64,000 bases of DNA from Chitinophagaceae bacterium. Its GTDB lineage: Bacteria; Bacteroidota; Bacteroidia; Chitinophagales; Chitinophagaceae. The stretch is from the NCBI GenBank assembly GCA_023957755.1, contig JAMLGT010000011.1, forward strand, positions 62,001 through 126,000, in the 5' to 3' direction. A program made the position numbers and the translations under genes. Positions 57,116 through 61,890 of the stretch are shown here, piece by piece. Position 1 is the first letter of the stretch. The number at the start of each line of letters is the position of its first letter. Below the pieces are notes generated by a model. It was not told the origin of the DNA. It was given only the letters and a program-made list of their open reading frames with translations, and did no database searches.

Positions 57116-58432
57116 TTATACGTTCTTTGTCCATGCATCCCTGTCATCAGGATTAAATTTCCATGGGGCAAAGTTGTTCTCGATATTATTGAACAATAGA
57201 TTCCATTCAGGTGGGGCATCGCTTTCTTCCATAATAAGCCCTCTTCTGAGTTGGAAAATAATATCCAGCGGACTGATACTCACAGGGCACTCCTGCACAC
57301 AGGCATTGCACGATACGCATGCCCGTAATTCCTCTGGGGTAATATAGTCGTGTAGTAATTTTTTCCCATCGTCCTTAAATTCACCACCATTGGAATTCAT
57401 ATTTTTTCGTACCTCTTCCATCCGGTCGCGGGTATCCATCATAATCTTTCTGGGATTTAGCAATTTCCCTGTTTGGTTTGCAGGGCATGCATCCGTACAG
57501 CGTCCACATTCTGTACAAGTGTAGGCGTCCAGAAGGTTTTTCCAGCTAAGGTCAAAAATATCCCTTGCTCCAAATCCGCCCATAGGTGCCTGCTCTCCCT
57601 GAGGAGCCAGCTCGGGTTGAAAGACGTATTGTACTTCCTTCTGCACCTGAGGCATATTATCCATTTCGCCCCAGGGCTGAAGGGGTTTGAAATAAGCATT
57701 CGGGAATGCGAGTATGATGTGCAAATGTTTACTGTAGGGCAGATAATTAAGGAATGCAAGAATACCTATAATATGCAACCACCAGGCCGACCTCTCTAAT
57801 GCAATCAGCGATGAAGCTGACCAGTCTGACAGTACTGGAGCAATTAATCCGCTTATCAGAAAGTTGCCCTGGTCTGTGTAGTGGGGAACTCCTTGTAACT
57901 GCAATGCCCTGTCTGCACTGTTCATGGTGATAAAAAGCGTCATCAGTACGACTTCTGTAATCAGGATTGCGTTTGCATCTGTTCTGGGCCAACCATCCAG
58001 ATCATGTTTGGCAAAGCGTGACAACCTGATAATGTTTCTTCGGATTAGGAACACAGCACATGCGACTATTACCCCCACTGCCAGCAATTCGAAGAAGTCT
58101 ATTACAAATGTGTAAAAGCTACCCAGCGATTCGGAGAATAACCGGTGTGTTCCTAAAATACCATCCAGGATGATTTCCAATATCTCTATATTGATGATGA
58201 TAAATCCGGCATACACCAAAAAATGCAAAACCCCTACCAGCGGATTTCTGAACATTTTCTTCTGCCCGAATGCCAGAAGGAATACATATCTCCACCTGAC
58301 GTTTTTCTGATCGGTCAGATCACGGTCCTTTCCAAGATTAATATTTGCCTTAATCTCCTTCACCTTGCGTGTGAACAGGTAAACAGCGATTAGAAACAGT
58401 AGTACAAACAGTATTTGTTGCAGTATAGCCAT
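57116..58432 (-). CDS. membrane Fe-S oxidoreductase (NarI-like helices plus 4Fe-4S domain)
   Basis: A 438-residue protein. The first 250 residues have several transmembrane helices, resembling the NarI/HdrE-type cytochrome b subunit. The C-terminal part has two [4Fe-4S] sites, CTECGRCTDACPANQTGK and CVSCNACVQECPVSISP. It should pass electrons between a quinone pool or b-haem and Fe-S partners. Its own partner gene is not adjacent. It is divergent from the nor cluster by about 316 bp. Confidence 0.85.
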   Translation of the reverse strand: MAILQQILFVLLFLIAVYLFTRKVKEIKANINLGKDRDLTDQKNVRWRYVFLLAFGQKKMFRNPLVGVLHFLVYAGFIIINIEILEIILDGILGTHRLFSESLGSFYTFVIDFFELLAVGVIVACAVFLIRRNIIRLSRFAKHDLDGWPRTDANAILITEVVLMTLFITMNSADRALQLQGVPHYTDQGNFLISGLIAPVLSDWSASSLIALERSAWWLHIIGILAFLNYLPYSKHLHIILAFPNAYFKPLQPWGEMDNMPQVQKEVQYVFQPELAPQGEQAPMGGFGARDIFDLSWKNLLDAYTCTECGRCTDACPANQTGKLLNPRKIMMDTRDRMEEVRKNMNSNGGEFKDDGKKLLHDYITPEELRACVSCNACVQECPVSISPLDIIFQLRRGLIMEESDAPPEWNLLFNNIENNFAPWKFNPDDRDAWTKNV

Positions 58433-58748
58433 GATAAATTCTTAGTAAAGCAATTATAGCAGCAAAGTAGCACAAAAAGCGGATTCTGAAAAGAAATGAA
58501 TCCTTCGGGAGATTTCAGTTAAATGGGTGGGAGTGTGATATTATTCTCCGTGATGAATCAGGGAGAGGGGCCTAGTGATAAATTGGGTGATGTCGAGAAA
58601 GGGAAAAAAAATAGACGATAAGTCCATGTAATACAATATGTTATGAATTGTCATCAGAATATCATTTTTTCCCAAAATAGAAGATGTAAAAGTCTTTTAT
58701 TTGCTTTTGACTTATTACATTGCCTTTCAAATTCAAAAAAAACTGAAA
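58433..58748. other. 316-bp divergent intergenic region
   Basis: Between the Fe-S protein gene (minus) and the nor cluster (plus). It is A+T-rich toward the nor side. I found no convincing TAnnTTTG element or FNR/NsrR-type palindrome by eye. It must hold promoters for both sides. Confidence 0.4.
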
Positions 58749-58988
58749 ATGAAATCTAAAAAGCAGGTCATTATCATTGCGTTTCTGCTCAACACCTTCT
58801 TTGTGTTGGTCTCAACGCCCTGGACTTTTGGACTCAGCTATTTCGGAGACTCTACGCTAGCCTGGGTACTTTATTACGTAATCGGATTTATCATCGGATG
58901 GTATGTGACTTATGTATTCATAAGGGCACTAATTATTCTGGTAAATCACACTTGTGAACAATTTAAAGAGATAAACAATGGACATTGA
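58749..58988 (+). CDS. small membrane protein, nor cluster
   Basis: A 79-residue protein with two hydrophobic segments (VIIIAFLLNTFFVLVSTPW; LAWVLYYVIGFIIGWYVTYVF). Its last 11 bp overlap the start of norC, so the two are translationally coupled. It may be an accessory factor for nitric-oxide reductase assembly, but no known family is recognised. ATG at 58749. Confidence 0.6.
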   Translation: MKSKKQVIIIAFLLNTFFVLVSTPWTFGLSYFGDSTLAWVLYYVIGFIIGWYVTYVFIRALIILVNHTCEQFKEINNGH

Positions 58989-59952
58989 AAAAGAGCAAAA
59001 GGCTCGTAAGGTTGCAATATGGGTAATCGGGCTGATGACTGCGATTTGGGTGGTATTAAGCGTTTTTTCTTTTACCGATACTAAAGACAGAGTGCGCCCG
59101 CGGACGGAGAATATCACCTTTGAAGGGGTAACTGCGTTGAAAGGAAAACAGGTTTTTCAGGCATACAGCTGTATGGACTGTCACACTATCGTAGGTAATG
59201 GTGCCTATTTTGCACCTGACCTTACCAAGATTTATGAGAAAACCGGTCCTGCCTGGCTAAAGGCTTATCTGGGATCGCCCGGAACATATCCTACAAAGGC
59301 AATTGTAGATATACAGTTGAAGCAAATGCTTTCAAAAGGTCAGCAACTACCTGCAGATATTAACACCTATCTGGAAGAATTTCCCGGCGCTAAAGAAAGG
59401 GTAGAAGACCGGGGAGGGATTAAGGCACTGATGCCCAATCTGCAATTCAGCGCGGAAGAGATTGATGCGCTAATCGCTTACTTTATCTATACAGGAAAAA
59501 TTAACACTGCCGGATGGCCTCCCAGGGTGATTGCTGATCCGGAAGTGGTAGCGGATCAGGCCAGGAAACTGGAAGAGCGCAGTGGCATTTTCAGGTTTAT
59601 GTCGCCTTCGGCAGCCAATACCTCACAGTCGGCGGATAATAGCGCTGCGACTGCCGCTTCCCCTGCCATACTCGGTGCACAGGTGGCTAAACAATATGCA
59701 TGCACAGCGTGCCATTCGGCTGATGGTTCCAAAGTGGTGGGTCCTACTTTTAAAGGGTTGTATGGGACTACTGTACCGCTGGCTGATGGCACTACAGCGA
59801 TTGCAGACGATGCCTATCTGGCGCAATCCATCCTGGAACCCAATGCGCATGTGGTGAAAGGATATCAGCAGGGGGTGATGCCTTCGTTCAAGGGGACTAT
59901 ATCCGACGATCAGGTCTCTGCACTAATTGCATATATCAAGTCTTTAAAATAA
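58978..59952 (+). CDS. norC: nitric-oxide reductase cytochrome c subunit, two-haem fusion
   Basis: A 324-residue protein. An N-terminal helix (VAIWVIGLMTAIWVVLSVF) anchors it; the first c-type haem motif SCMDCHT lies near residue 65. This part matches NorC. After a linker rich in Ser/Ala, a second cytochrome c domain carries ACTACHS near residue 243 and PSFKGTISDDQ near the C-terminus, where VMPSF could supply the axial Met. Ordinary NorC is about half this length, so a cytochrome domain has been fused. It passes electrons to NorB, 15 bp downstream. Confidence 0.85.
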   Translation: MDIEKEQKARKVAIWVIGLMTAIWVVLSVFSFTDTKDRVRPRTENITFEGVTALKGKQVFQAYSCMDCHTIVGNGAYFAPDLTKIYEKTGPAWLKAYLGSPGTYPTKAIVDIQLKQMLSKGQQLPADINTYLEEFPGAKERVEDRGGIKALMPNLQFSAEEIDALIAYFIYTGKINTAGWPPRVIADPEVVADQARKLEERSGIFRFMSPSAANTSQSADNSAATAASPAILGAQVAKQYACTACHSADGSKVVGPTFKGLYGTTVPLADGTTAIADDAYLAQSILEPNAHVVKGYQQGVMPSFKGTISDDQVSALIAYIKSLK

Positions 59953-59967
59953 AATAACTGACTACTA

Positions 59968-61890
59968 ATGGAAATTAAATATAATTCGCAACGTTTAGCA
60001 TATCCCTTTTTCGTTTCCATGCTGATTCTTTTTGCCTTGCAGATTGGCTTTGGGTTGCTGCTGGCACTCATTCAGATGGATCCTGATTTGCTGAAAGGGA
60101 CTTTCAATTTTAATGTGGCCCGTGCTTTTCATCTGAATCTGGCTATCGTATGGATAGTGACAGGTTTTATCGGTACAATTCTATTTGTGGGGCCTATTCT
60201 CGGTCAGCGTGATGTGCGTCCCAGATGGCTGGCAATCCTGTTGCTTATAGCTATCTGGATCGTCGTATTATGGAGTATCGCCACGCTGCCGCTGGCTCAG
60301 GTGGGCATTGCAGGATGGGTAGGTAATACGCCCTGGTTACAACAAGGAATGGAATTTCTGGAAGGAGGCCGTGTGACAGATATCCTGCTATTTATTGGAT
60401 TTGGGATTTTTGCCTATCTCACTCTGGTGATGTTTCCCAAAAAAGTGAAAAGATGGAATGAACTTCATTGGGGGCTGGCTATCGGAGTGGTGGGCTTGGT
60501 GGGAGTATGGGTTTTTACCATGATCCCTACAAAGGAACTCGACCTACAGGAATATTTCCGCTGGTATGTAGTGCATTATTGGGTAGAAGCCGTTTGGGAA
60601 ATTATTCATATTACGCTGATAGGTTTCTTGCTGGCCAGATTTTTTGGTGCGGATGATAAAGAAGTGGGCTTTGCTGTGTTCTGGGGAATTAGCCTGGTGG
60701 TGTTGAGTGGTCTGATAGGTAATTCTCACCACTATTTCTGGATAGGCACACCGGCATTCTGGCAATTCTGGGGCTCTCTTTTCAGTGCGCTTGAACCACT
60801 GCCTTTAATCTTTTGTATTTGGCACGTATATCTTGACGAAAAACATGGTGTAACTCCGATAAAGAATAGGGCTGCATTTTACTTCATTTTTGGGTCAGCT
60901 CTCTTTGAGTCAGTTGGAGCCGGAGTATTGGGCTTTACCATGACGATGGCCTATGCCAATCTTTGGGAACACGGTACATGGCTGACCGCCGCTCATGGCC
61001 ACATGGCATTGTTCGGTGCTTTCGGGTTGTTGGTGATCGGTGCAGCTTATGAGGCTGTAAGGCAGATCAAAGGAATCAATCGGTTCAAAGATGGGATGTC
61101 CAAACTCAGTTTCTGGATGCTTTTTGTGGGCCTTTCAGGTATTGTGGGCAGCTTTGCTTTCGGTGGCACCAAACAAATATATGTGTATAGGATTCTGGGG
61201 CTCGACTGGTGGGGACATCAGATACGTCCTGCAATGTCACAGGCAAGAGTGTTGCTTGGAGTCTTTGCATTCCTATTTGTGCTGGGAGGAATCATTGTAA
61301 TATATGACTTACTGACGCTGAAAGACAGGGCTATTTCTGAAACAAACCAAAAGCTATTAGACAGTAAACTCCAGACTCGCGGTACTATAAGTTGGTGGCG
61401 AAGGTCTATGACTCAGTTTGAGTTTGCAGTATGGCTTTCGGGTATCTGGCTGTTTGGCCTTATTGTGACAGCAGGTGTTTTTTCATTTAACCTGCATAGT
61501 GTAAGGCTGGGTGACCCTACGATTCCCTATATCATACTGGGAATTGGTTATCCGGGCTTGTTAATCATCACACTTGTATTTGCACACCGGTTTCTGATGG
61601 CTTTTGAACAACGACAGGATTTGCTTCAGGTAGTCCAGAACTTCTCTGTAGGTGGTCAATTACAGATCGTGGATATACGTAACAAGGCAGAAAAAGGCGG
61701 AGAGCGGGAACAGTTGATTCTTGATACGTTTAACCGTTTGAGTTATGGTGAAGCCTTTATGGTCTTGTCTGACCGCGAGACCGGTTGCCAGCATCATACG
61801 CTGCACAAAATACTCGGTACCACCTTTGCGTGGGAAGTACTGGAAGCGGGGCCTCAACAATGGAAAGTGAAAGTAGGTAAGCTGAATTAA
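59968..61890 (+). CDS. norB: nitric-oxide reductase large subunit with C-terminal DUF2249-like domain
   Basis: A 640-residue NorB that reduces NO to N2O. Catalytic ligands are visible: AFHLNLAIVW (haem b His), VVHYWVEAVWE (FeB His and Glu), GNSHHYFWIG (two FeB His), and AAHGHMALFGAFG (haem b3 and b His). Normal NorB ends around residue 450; here two more helices and a soluble tail follow. The tail (VDIRNKAEKGGEREQLILD, LSYGEAFMVLSDRETGC, WEVLEAGPQQWKV) resembles a DUF2249 domain. A terminator follows at 61921. Confidence 0.88.
   Translation: MEIKYNSQRLAYPFFVSMLILFALQIGFGLLLALIQMDPDLLKGTFNFNVARAFHLNLAIVWIVTGFIGTILFVGPILGQRDVRPRWLAILLLIAIWIVVLWSIATLPLAQVGIAGWVGNTPWLQQGMEFLEGGRVTDILLFIGFGIFAYLTLVMFPKKVKRWNELHWGLAIGVVGLVGVWVFTMIPTKELDLQEYFRWYVVHYWVEAVWEIIHITLIGFLLARFFGADDKEVGFAVFWGISLVVLSGLIGNSHHYFWIGTPAFWQFWGSLFSALEPLPLIFCIWHVYLDEKHGVTPIKNRAAFYFIFGSALFESVGAGVLGFTMTMAYANLWEHGTWLTAAHGHMALFGAFGLLVIGAAYEAVRQIKGINRFKDGMSKLSFWMLFVGLSGIVGSFAFGGTKQIYVYRILGLDWWGHQIRPAMSQARVLLGVFAFLFVLGGIIVIYDLLTLKDRAISETNQKLLDSKLQTRGTISWWRRSMTQFEFAVWLSGIWLFGLIVTAGVFSFNLHSVRLGDPTIPYIILGIGYPGLLIITLVFAHRFLMAFEQRQDLLQVVQNFSVGGQLQIVDIRNKAEKGGEREQLILDTFNRLSYGEAFMVLSDRETGCQHHTLHKILGTTFAWEVLEAGPQQWKVKVGKLN

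Follow-up and report, generated by a model that had tools for sequence, protein, structure and literature searches.

The 64,000-nt stretch of Chitinophagaceae bacterium DNA that we analyzed (the window; coordinates without a locus prefix are positions within it) carries a nor operon on its + strand, in which norB is a single open reading frame of 640 aa (59968-61890, ATG start). Read from the N-terminus, this frame encodes a NorB catalytic core, two extra helices, a linker, and a C-terminal tail (Table 1).

Table 1. Features of the nor operon in the window
Feature	Position	Strand	Evidence or remark
Small two-helix membrane protein	58701..58988	+	Upstream of norC, with which it overlaps by 11 bases
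NorC-like subunit, 324 aa	58978..59952	+	Pfam Cytochrom_C, two stretches; directly upstream of norB
NorB catalytic core, residues 1-455	59968..61332	+	Pfam COX1; alignment to PDB 3o0r_B
Two extra transmembrane helices (predicted), residues ~483-548	61414..61611	+	AlphaFold2 model; alignment
Linker continuing helix 14	61612..61671	+	Alignment; one helix 518-561 in model
DUF2249 domain, residues 569-637, without [K/R]H and [N/D]HDP	61672..61878	+	Pfam PF10006, hhalign, tail model

The core matched COX1 over residues 10-410 (E 4e-40), and its best solved relative was 3o0r_B (E 1e-59), an alignment in which the FeB histidines and glutamate and the haem histidines typical of cytochrome-c-type NO reductases (cNORs) were all present in the window NorB. 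H55, H203, E207, H254, H255, E276, H343, and H345, whose roles we take to be those of their counterparts in cNOR structures, were invariant across nine aligned members of the clade described below, and the NO-reductase active site of the fused NorB is predicted to be intact. Beyond the core, a low-confidence AlphaFold2 model (mean pLDDT 67) places the extra helices at residues ~483-508 and ~518-548; hydrophobic stretches at both positions are common to fused and unfused clade members, and the helices are absent from cNORs of 436-476 aa (among which L020 is truncated). The linker begins with a conserved RQDxLQ, its remainder being variable.

The small membrane protein upstream of norC more probably starts at an ATG at 58749. 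A tblastn search found the gene at the same place in eight of nine related loci, the ninth contig (L066) beginning inside norC, and the protein matched no Pfam family over its cut-off. Kinship with the small ORF that follows norB in Thermus was considered and rejected, there being no similarity. The NorC-like protein carries a hydrophobic stretch at its N-terminus and two motifs for c-type haem (CMDCH at residue 65 and CTACH at 242). Two CxxCH motifs were likewise found in the NorC of seven of the eight complete relatives (L066 excluded, its contig being cut), and nine ordinary cNOR loci from the window's order have a NorC frame of 144-164 aa with one CxxCH. The NorC of L065 (L065:5017-5994) reads GMDCH instead of CMDCH at its first haem motif; either the cysteine has been lost or the sequence is in error. 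Divergent from the operon lies a gene (57116-58432, - strand) for a membrane protein that carries 4Fe-4S motifs and weakly resembles heterodisulfide reductase, at a score below the model cut-off; a near copy adjoins in L064. The window genome also encodes NosZ (TIGR04246) and NirK (TIGR02376), both above their cut-offs, which makes denitrification from nitrite probable for this organism; among nine genomes, NirK passed its cut-off in four and NosZ in seven. NO reductases make N2O, a strong greenhouse gas, from nitric oxide.

We then assigned the tail to a family. When the whole 640-aa protein was compared with Pfam DUF2249 (PF10006), it scored 27.5 bits (E 3e-6), just under the cut-off of 29.5, and the last 100 residues scanned alone scored 32.4 bits (E 8e-8), above it. 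Among the five other complete fused proteins, L068 passed (33.0 bits), three scored 17.8-24.7 bits, and L066 was hardly recognised (12.3 bits, E 0.15). A profile of six tails was matched by hhalign to a profile of 22 non-tail DUF2249 domains with a probability of 98.3% over 59 columns; NCBIfam gave no match for NorB or its tail. The tail of NorB is a DUF2249 domain. The preliminary description of this DNA had read the end of NorB in the same way, as two extra helices followed by a soluble tail resembling DUF2249: the helices are borne out by the low-confidence model and the hydrophobic stretches shared across the clade, and the resemblance by hhalign and by a profile search of the C-terminal ~100 residues, the check suggested there, which found DUF2249 over its cut-off.

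A model of the tail, built from eight alignment rows of which two were canonical DUF2249 domains of L067 (mean pLDDT 80.6), predicts a beta-alpha-beta-alpha-beta-beta fold with pLDDT 86-92 over the domain. Folds were compared from this model only, the full-length one (nine rows; tail blocks at pLDDT 42-72) being too weak for placing the tail relative to the membrane part. The closest solved chain was YeeE-YeeD (Z 9.7), followed by TusA and SirA-like chains down to Z 9.1; since Alba-type chains reached Z 8.7-9.0, less than 1 Z below YeeE-YeeD, the fold does not point to TusA in particular. The Foldseek match to YeeE-YeeD was weak (E 0.008), with none at 0.001 or better, and as to the CPxP motif of TusA, no CP occurs in the seven tail sequences. 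Sequence searches with the tail alone (at E 10) and with the 22-domain profile (at E 1) found no solved DUF2249 structure.

How widespread is the fusion? A contig scan covering 84,980 species, which relies on short patterns that remote cases may escape, returned nine loci. Six were fused (L063-L068) and came from Chitinophagaceae, Weeksellaceae, and a "Flavobacteriia" MAG placed in the same family as the Weeksellaceae one; three matched residues 1-550 only and came from Gemmatimonadaceae (L069), Rhodanobacteraceae (L070), and Rubrivivax (L071). The survey of NorB homologues for the same fusion, also proposed at the outset, thus located it at six Bacteroidota loci besides the window, in two lineages of that phylum. 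The fused frame is uninterrupted in the window and in five other MAGs (L063, L065, L066, L067, and L068) at 67-85% identity; L064 is near-identical, with 10 Ns in the gene, beyond which a second frame encodes the tail. That norB was merely joined to a neighboring DUF2249 gene by a frameshift, a chimeric contig, or a wrong stop is vanishingly improbable when the same frame recurs in five other MAGs; we found nothing in favor of such an artefact and ruled it out.

The fusion is rare. Among 248 genomes sampled from the window's order, 36 had a NorB relative (E 1e-20), and only the window's among 40 matches passes residue 468. The tail region was matched in 14 of 395 genomes of a phylum sample (E 1e-6), the matches in the 13 genomes other than the window's lying in frames of 80-323 aa that are not NorB fusions. 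Clade NorBs were found in 3 of 294 genomes of the Chitinophagaceae family sample (all fused), 2 of 320 in the family of G864, 1 of 196 sampled from the order of G865, and 3 of 200 and 1 of 200 in samples around the unfused members; these samples overlap, and L065/L073, L068/L072, L067/L074, and L066/L136 are the same places. Viral contigs contained nothing matching the search patterns, and 317 plasmid records had NorB relatives, with 0 of the matches listed (20 of 317) covering 80% of the query. The literature passages on DUF2249 covered here describe no NorB fusion.

To place the fused protein among NO reductases, we used a tree of 41 NorBs, in which the long NorBs grouped together (100/99). 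Their sister group consisted of 21 other cNORs, Thermus among them (98/96 for those 21), and outside references were few; long branches were flagged by the tool, and the depth of the clade is uncertain. Quinol-type enzymes (qNORs; NorZ) share the NO-reductase core but lay far off in the tree and are single chains, nearly every survey row having an open frame of 750-828 aa (one has 485); tree position and length ruled out a qNOR identity for the fused NorB. With cNORs (NorCB; PDB 3o0r, 4xyd) it has in common the NorB core, the active-site residues, and a cytochrome c subunit gene just upstream. It differs from them in that the clade has NorBs of 14 helices instead of 12 and a NorC bearing two haem motifs where theirs bears one, in that the operon adds a DUF2249 tail to NorB and a small membrane gene, in that no norQ was found nearby, and in falling on a deep separate branch. 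The fused protein is predicted to serve a divergent cNOR as its catalytic subunit. Its relatives make up a rare, deeply branching NOR clade in Bacteroidota, Gemmatimonadota, and Pseudomonadota (window 58701-61890; loci L063-L071, L075, and L077), whose traits are a 14-helix NorB, a two-haem NorC, a small membrane protein, no norQ found nearby, and no GVDRE motif; the counts for norC and the small gene cover the window and L063-L071.

Within this clade, the fused NorBs formed one group in the 41-NorB tree (99/95) and in the first tree (100/97), the tails formed one group among 54 DUF2249 domains (99/100), and the same three sister pairs appeared in the NorB trees and the tail tree. Both NorB trees were built without L064 (because of its Ns) and the duplicates L072, L073, L074, L076, and L078, the second also without L032, L020, and L021, and the domain tree without the L064 tail. 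Since NorBs and tails each form one group with the same sister pairs, core and tail were joined in a single fusion event and descended together thereafter. The unfused clade members (Gemmatimonadota and Pseudomonadota) have the extra helices and no DUF2249 domain, and the three that were aligned end 21-28 residues past the last conserved arginine of helix 14. The helices, being common to fused and unfused members, are thus older than the fusion.

We compared the tails with 48 other DUF2249 domains, comprising eight from the window's own genome and 40 of the 43 non-NorB places in eight related-locus genomes (the three lowest-ranked were omitted). An early [K/R]H was present in 33 of these domains, [N/D]HDP in 32, and both in 29; both motifs were absent from all seven tails, near-duplicate L064 included. 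Since HDP is also missing from 16 of the 48, among them DrpB-like proteins and the middle domain of a 251-aa protein described below, its absence does not exclude the tails from the family. They retain a C-terminal WExxExGPxxWKxKxGKxN-like stretch and an SD, together with a QH in six of seven (QR in L066), and this partly conserved QH pair could be a new ligand site. The tail is under purifying selection: dN/dS was 0.155-0.185 in three of five pairs with finite dS, ratios that are rough, dS being saturated or nearly so, and 18 of 82 columns were invariant across six tails. Loss of the motifs combined with a dN/dS well below 1 suggests a degenerate DUF2249 whose domain is maintained and whose chemistry has changed. 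Change has been faster in the tail than in the core (50% versus 79% identity between the window and L065), and this, with the vanished family motifs and one member that Pfam hardly recognises, is what would be expected of a tolerated appendage, left by a chance fusion and having no role beyond folding or stability. We consider such an appendage unlikely, since the tail has been retained at all seven loci in two Bacteroidota lineages (six uninterrupted, L064 with Ns) and both the dN/dS and the invariant columns argue for constraint.

The motif counts also bear on what the tail might sense. DUF2249 proteins had been described beforehand as known near nitrogen-oxide genes, and this is documented in Thermus, where the DUF2249 proteins DrpA and DrpB accompany such genes and are proposed nitrate sensors (PMC6282519), and in Haloferax, where a DUF2249 gene is induced under denitrification with a log2FC of 8.65 (PMC11218638, which cites Pei et al. 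2014 for a link between DUF2249 and heme-copper enzymes). The NorB tail has in common with this family its profile, its predicted fold, and the WExxExGPxxW part of the C-terminal stretch, and differs in being fused to an NO reductase and in missing both histidine motifs. By analogy with the proposal for DrpA/DrpB, the tail might itself bind NO, nitrate/nitrite, or a metal and gate the reductase or relay a signal, to which the Thermus and Haloferax reports and the retained SD and QH residues lend some weight. Sensing through the tail's motifs is improbable because the canonical ones are missing from every tail, and the sections of the two papers covered here show no ligand for any DUF2249; a direct sensor is therefore a reading that we rate as decidedly improbable. 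The preliminary description had taken the covalent link to suggest a direct sensory or assembly role: the link itself stands, as a fused domain, and sensing by the usual DUF2249 motifs is weakened. DUF2249 recurs with denitrification genes in bacteria and archaea, and the fusion supplies a concrete enzyme partner and a likely location, the covalent link making DUF2249 function testable via one tail.

We next considered on which side of the membrane the tail lies. The N-terminus of cNOR is cytoplasmic. With helices taken by hand from the model, the seven "in" loops that precede the tail contain 19 lysines and arginines and the seven "out" loops 6; an even number of helices (fourteen) and the positive-inside rule would return the C-terminus to the cytoplasm, where the tail should therefore lie. 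A similar arrangement is found in YeeE-YeeD (TsuA-TsuB), where the TusA-like YeeD sits against the membrane protein YeeE on the cytoplasmic side (PMC11073785). The two systems differ in that YeeD has the CPxP cysteine, which the tails do not, and in that the membrane proteins are unrelated; identity is 16-19%. A DUF2249 domain was added once to the C-terminus of NorB and probably lies on the cytoplasmic face, where, we propose, it may act analogously to YeeD on YeeE as a noncatalytic docking module that holds a cytosolic partner at the reductase. Its likeliest use would be in maturation (assembly), repair, or regulation, and not in metal or NO binding by the tail itself. A putative docking module of this kind, its partner left unspecified, has in our estimate a little short of an even chance of being correct. 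Against it stand the faster change of the tail, which a tolerated appendage would show too, as well as the QH pair, the weak Foldseek match, and L066, barely recognised as DUF2249.

Since maturation is among the proposed uses, we examined the known route to FeB. In Paracoccus denitrificans, NorQ and NorD are needed for FeB insertion, as are two NorB residues, D220 and E222, where helix VII ends on the cytoplasmic side, and qNOR needs no NorQD (all reported in PMC9976466). A norQ probe found the gene downstream of norB in six of seven ordinary cNOR loci and gave no match in the window or in the flanks (0.5-6 kb) of nine clade loci. A norD probe gave no match in the window or clade flanks either, a silence that says little, as the probe matched its own record only; a search of nine genomes for CbbQ_C (the norQ family) returned nothing, and its control matched nowhere. 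Outside the clade, the motif GVDRE occurs in 22 of 23 cNORs (Thermus being the exception); at the aligned position, 0 of 10 qNORs and 0 of 11 clade rows have it. We equate its acidic pair with D220/E222 by inference, the spacing to the His pair being a misfit (25 versus 33 residues). The six fused rows have GAD[DE]xE, an acidic pair ([DE]-x-E) shifted by one residue, so that only the five unfused clade rows are clearly without the pair. The tail does not simply stand in for NorQD, because no norQ or norD was found near unfused clade members either. The clade as a whole may show how FeB iron is inserted without NorQD.

One more specific version of docking would have the tail serve as a tether for maturation or repair, recruiting RIC-type proteins (DUF2249-ScdA_N-hemerythrin) through DUF2249-DUF2249 contact so that iron reaches FeB, perhaps in a clade without NorQD. 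RIC proteins are reported iron donors (PMC8117158), and RIC-type DUF2249 proteins were found in five of the six fused genomes examined (the window's, G863, G864, G865, and G866, with G862 as the sixth); the distribution of norQ by probe and the missing GVDRE would fit as well. Such a tether is nonetheless quite unlikely. Unfused members, too, have no norQ in their flanks, the fused rows keep a shifted pair, the Thermus cNOR is also without GVDRE, the equation with D220/E222 has its spacing misfit, and the norD probe and the genome-wide norQ search behaved as described. RIC-type proteins, moreover, track phylum: none was seen in fused genome G862, and they made up 0 of 8 DUF2249 ORFs in three unfused genomes (one scanned as a bare domain), a weak contrast that also separates phyla. 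YtfE and ScdA are reported to be NO-generating nitrite reductases (PMC9052748, PMC12412097). A homotypic dock for DUF2249-ScdA_N-hemerythrin di-iron proteins, serving either FeB loading and repair without NorQD or the handover of nitrite-derived NO, is conceivable, and we regard it as very doubtful. The wider docking module that we favor leaves the partner unspecified.

The window genome contains nine DUF2249 domains over the cut-off: the NorB tail, five on contig C12, and three on contig C23. On C12 (L079:5854-10797), what is likely an NO-stress cluster encodes a 484-aa protein with three DUF2249 domains followed by ScdA_N and hemerythrin and a DrpB-like DUF1858 protein with two DUF2249 domains, then a membrane protein of 426 aa that matches nothing in Pfam, a protein of the FeS-assembly type, and an Rrf2 regulator; a similar gene order was seen in L127 and L128. 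On C23 (L080:5656-6408) is the 251-aa protein of three DUF2249 domains, the outer ones with HDP and the middle one without, a pattern that recurs in L083/L107/L118 and L084/L103/L115 of related genomes. In a Gemmatimonadaceae genome, a membrane protein of 444 aa that matches COX1 weakly (L121:170-1501; 23.3 bits, under the cut-off), possibly from one of the heme-copper-oxidase-like families, adjoins DUF2249 genes. One of the products encoded there (L121:1405-2355) is a DUF1858-DUF2249-DUF2249 protein with a final segment that scores over the cut-off for Pfam TusA (30.6 bits), uniting the DUF2249 and TusA families in one chain.
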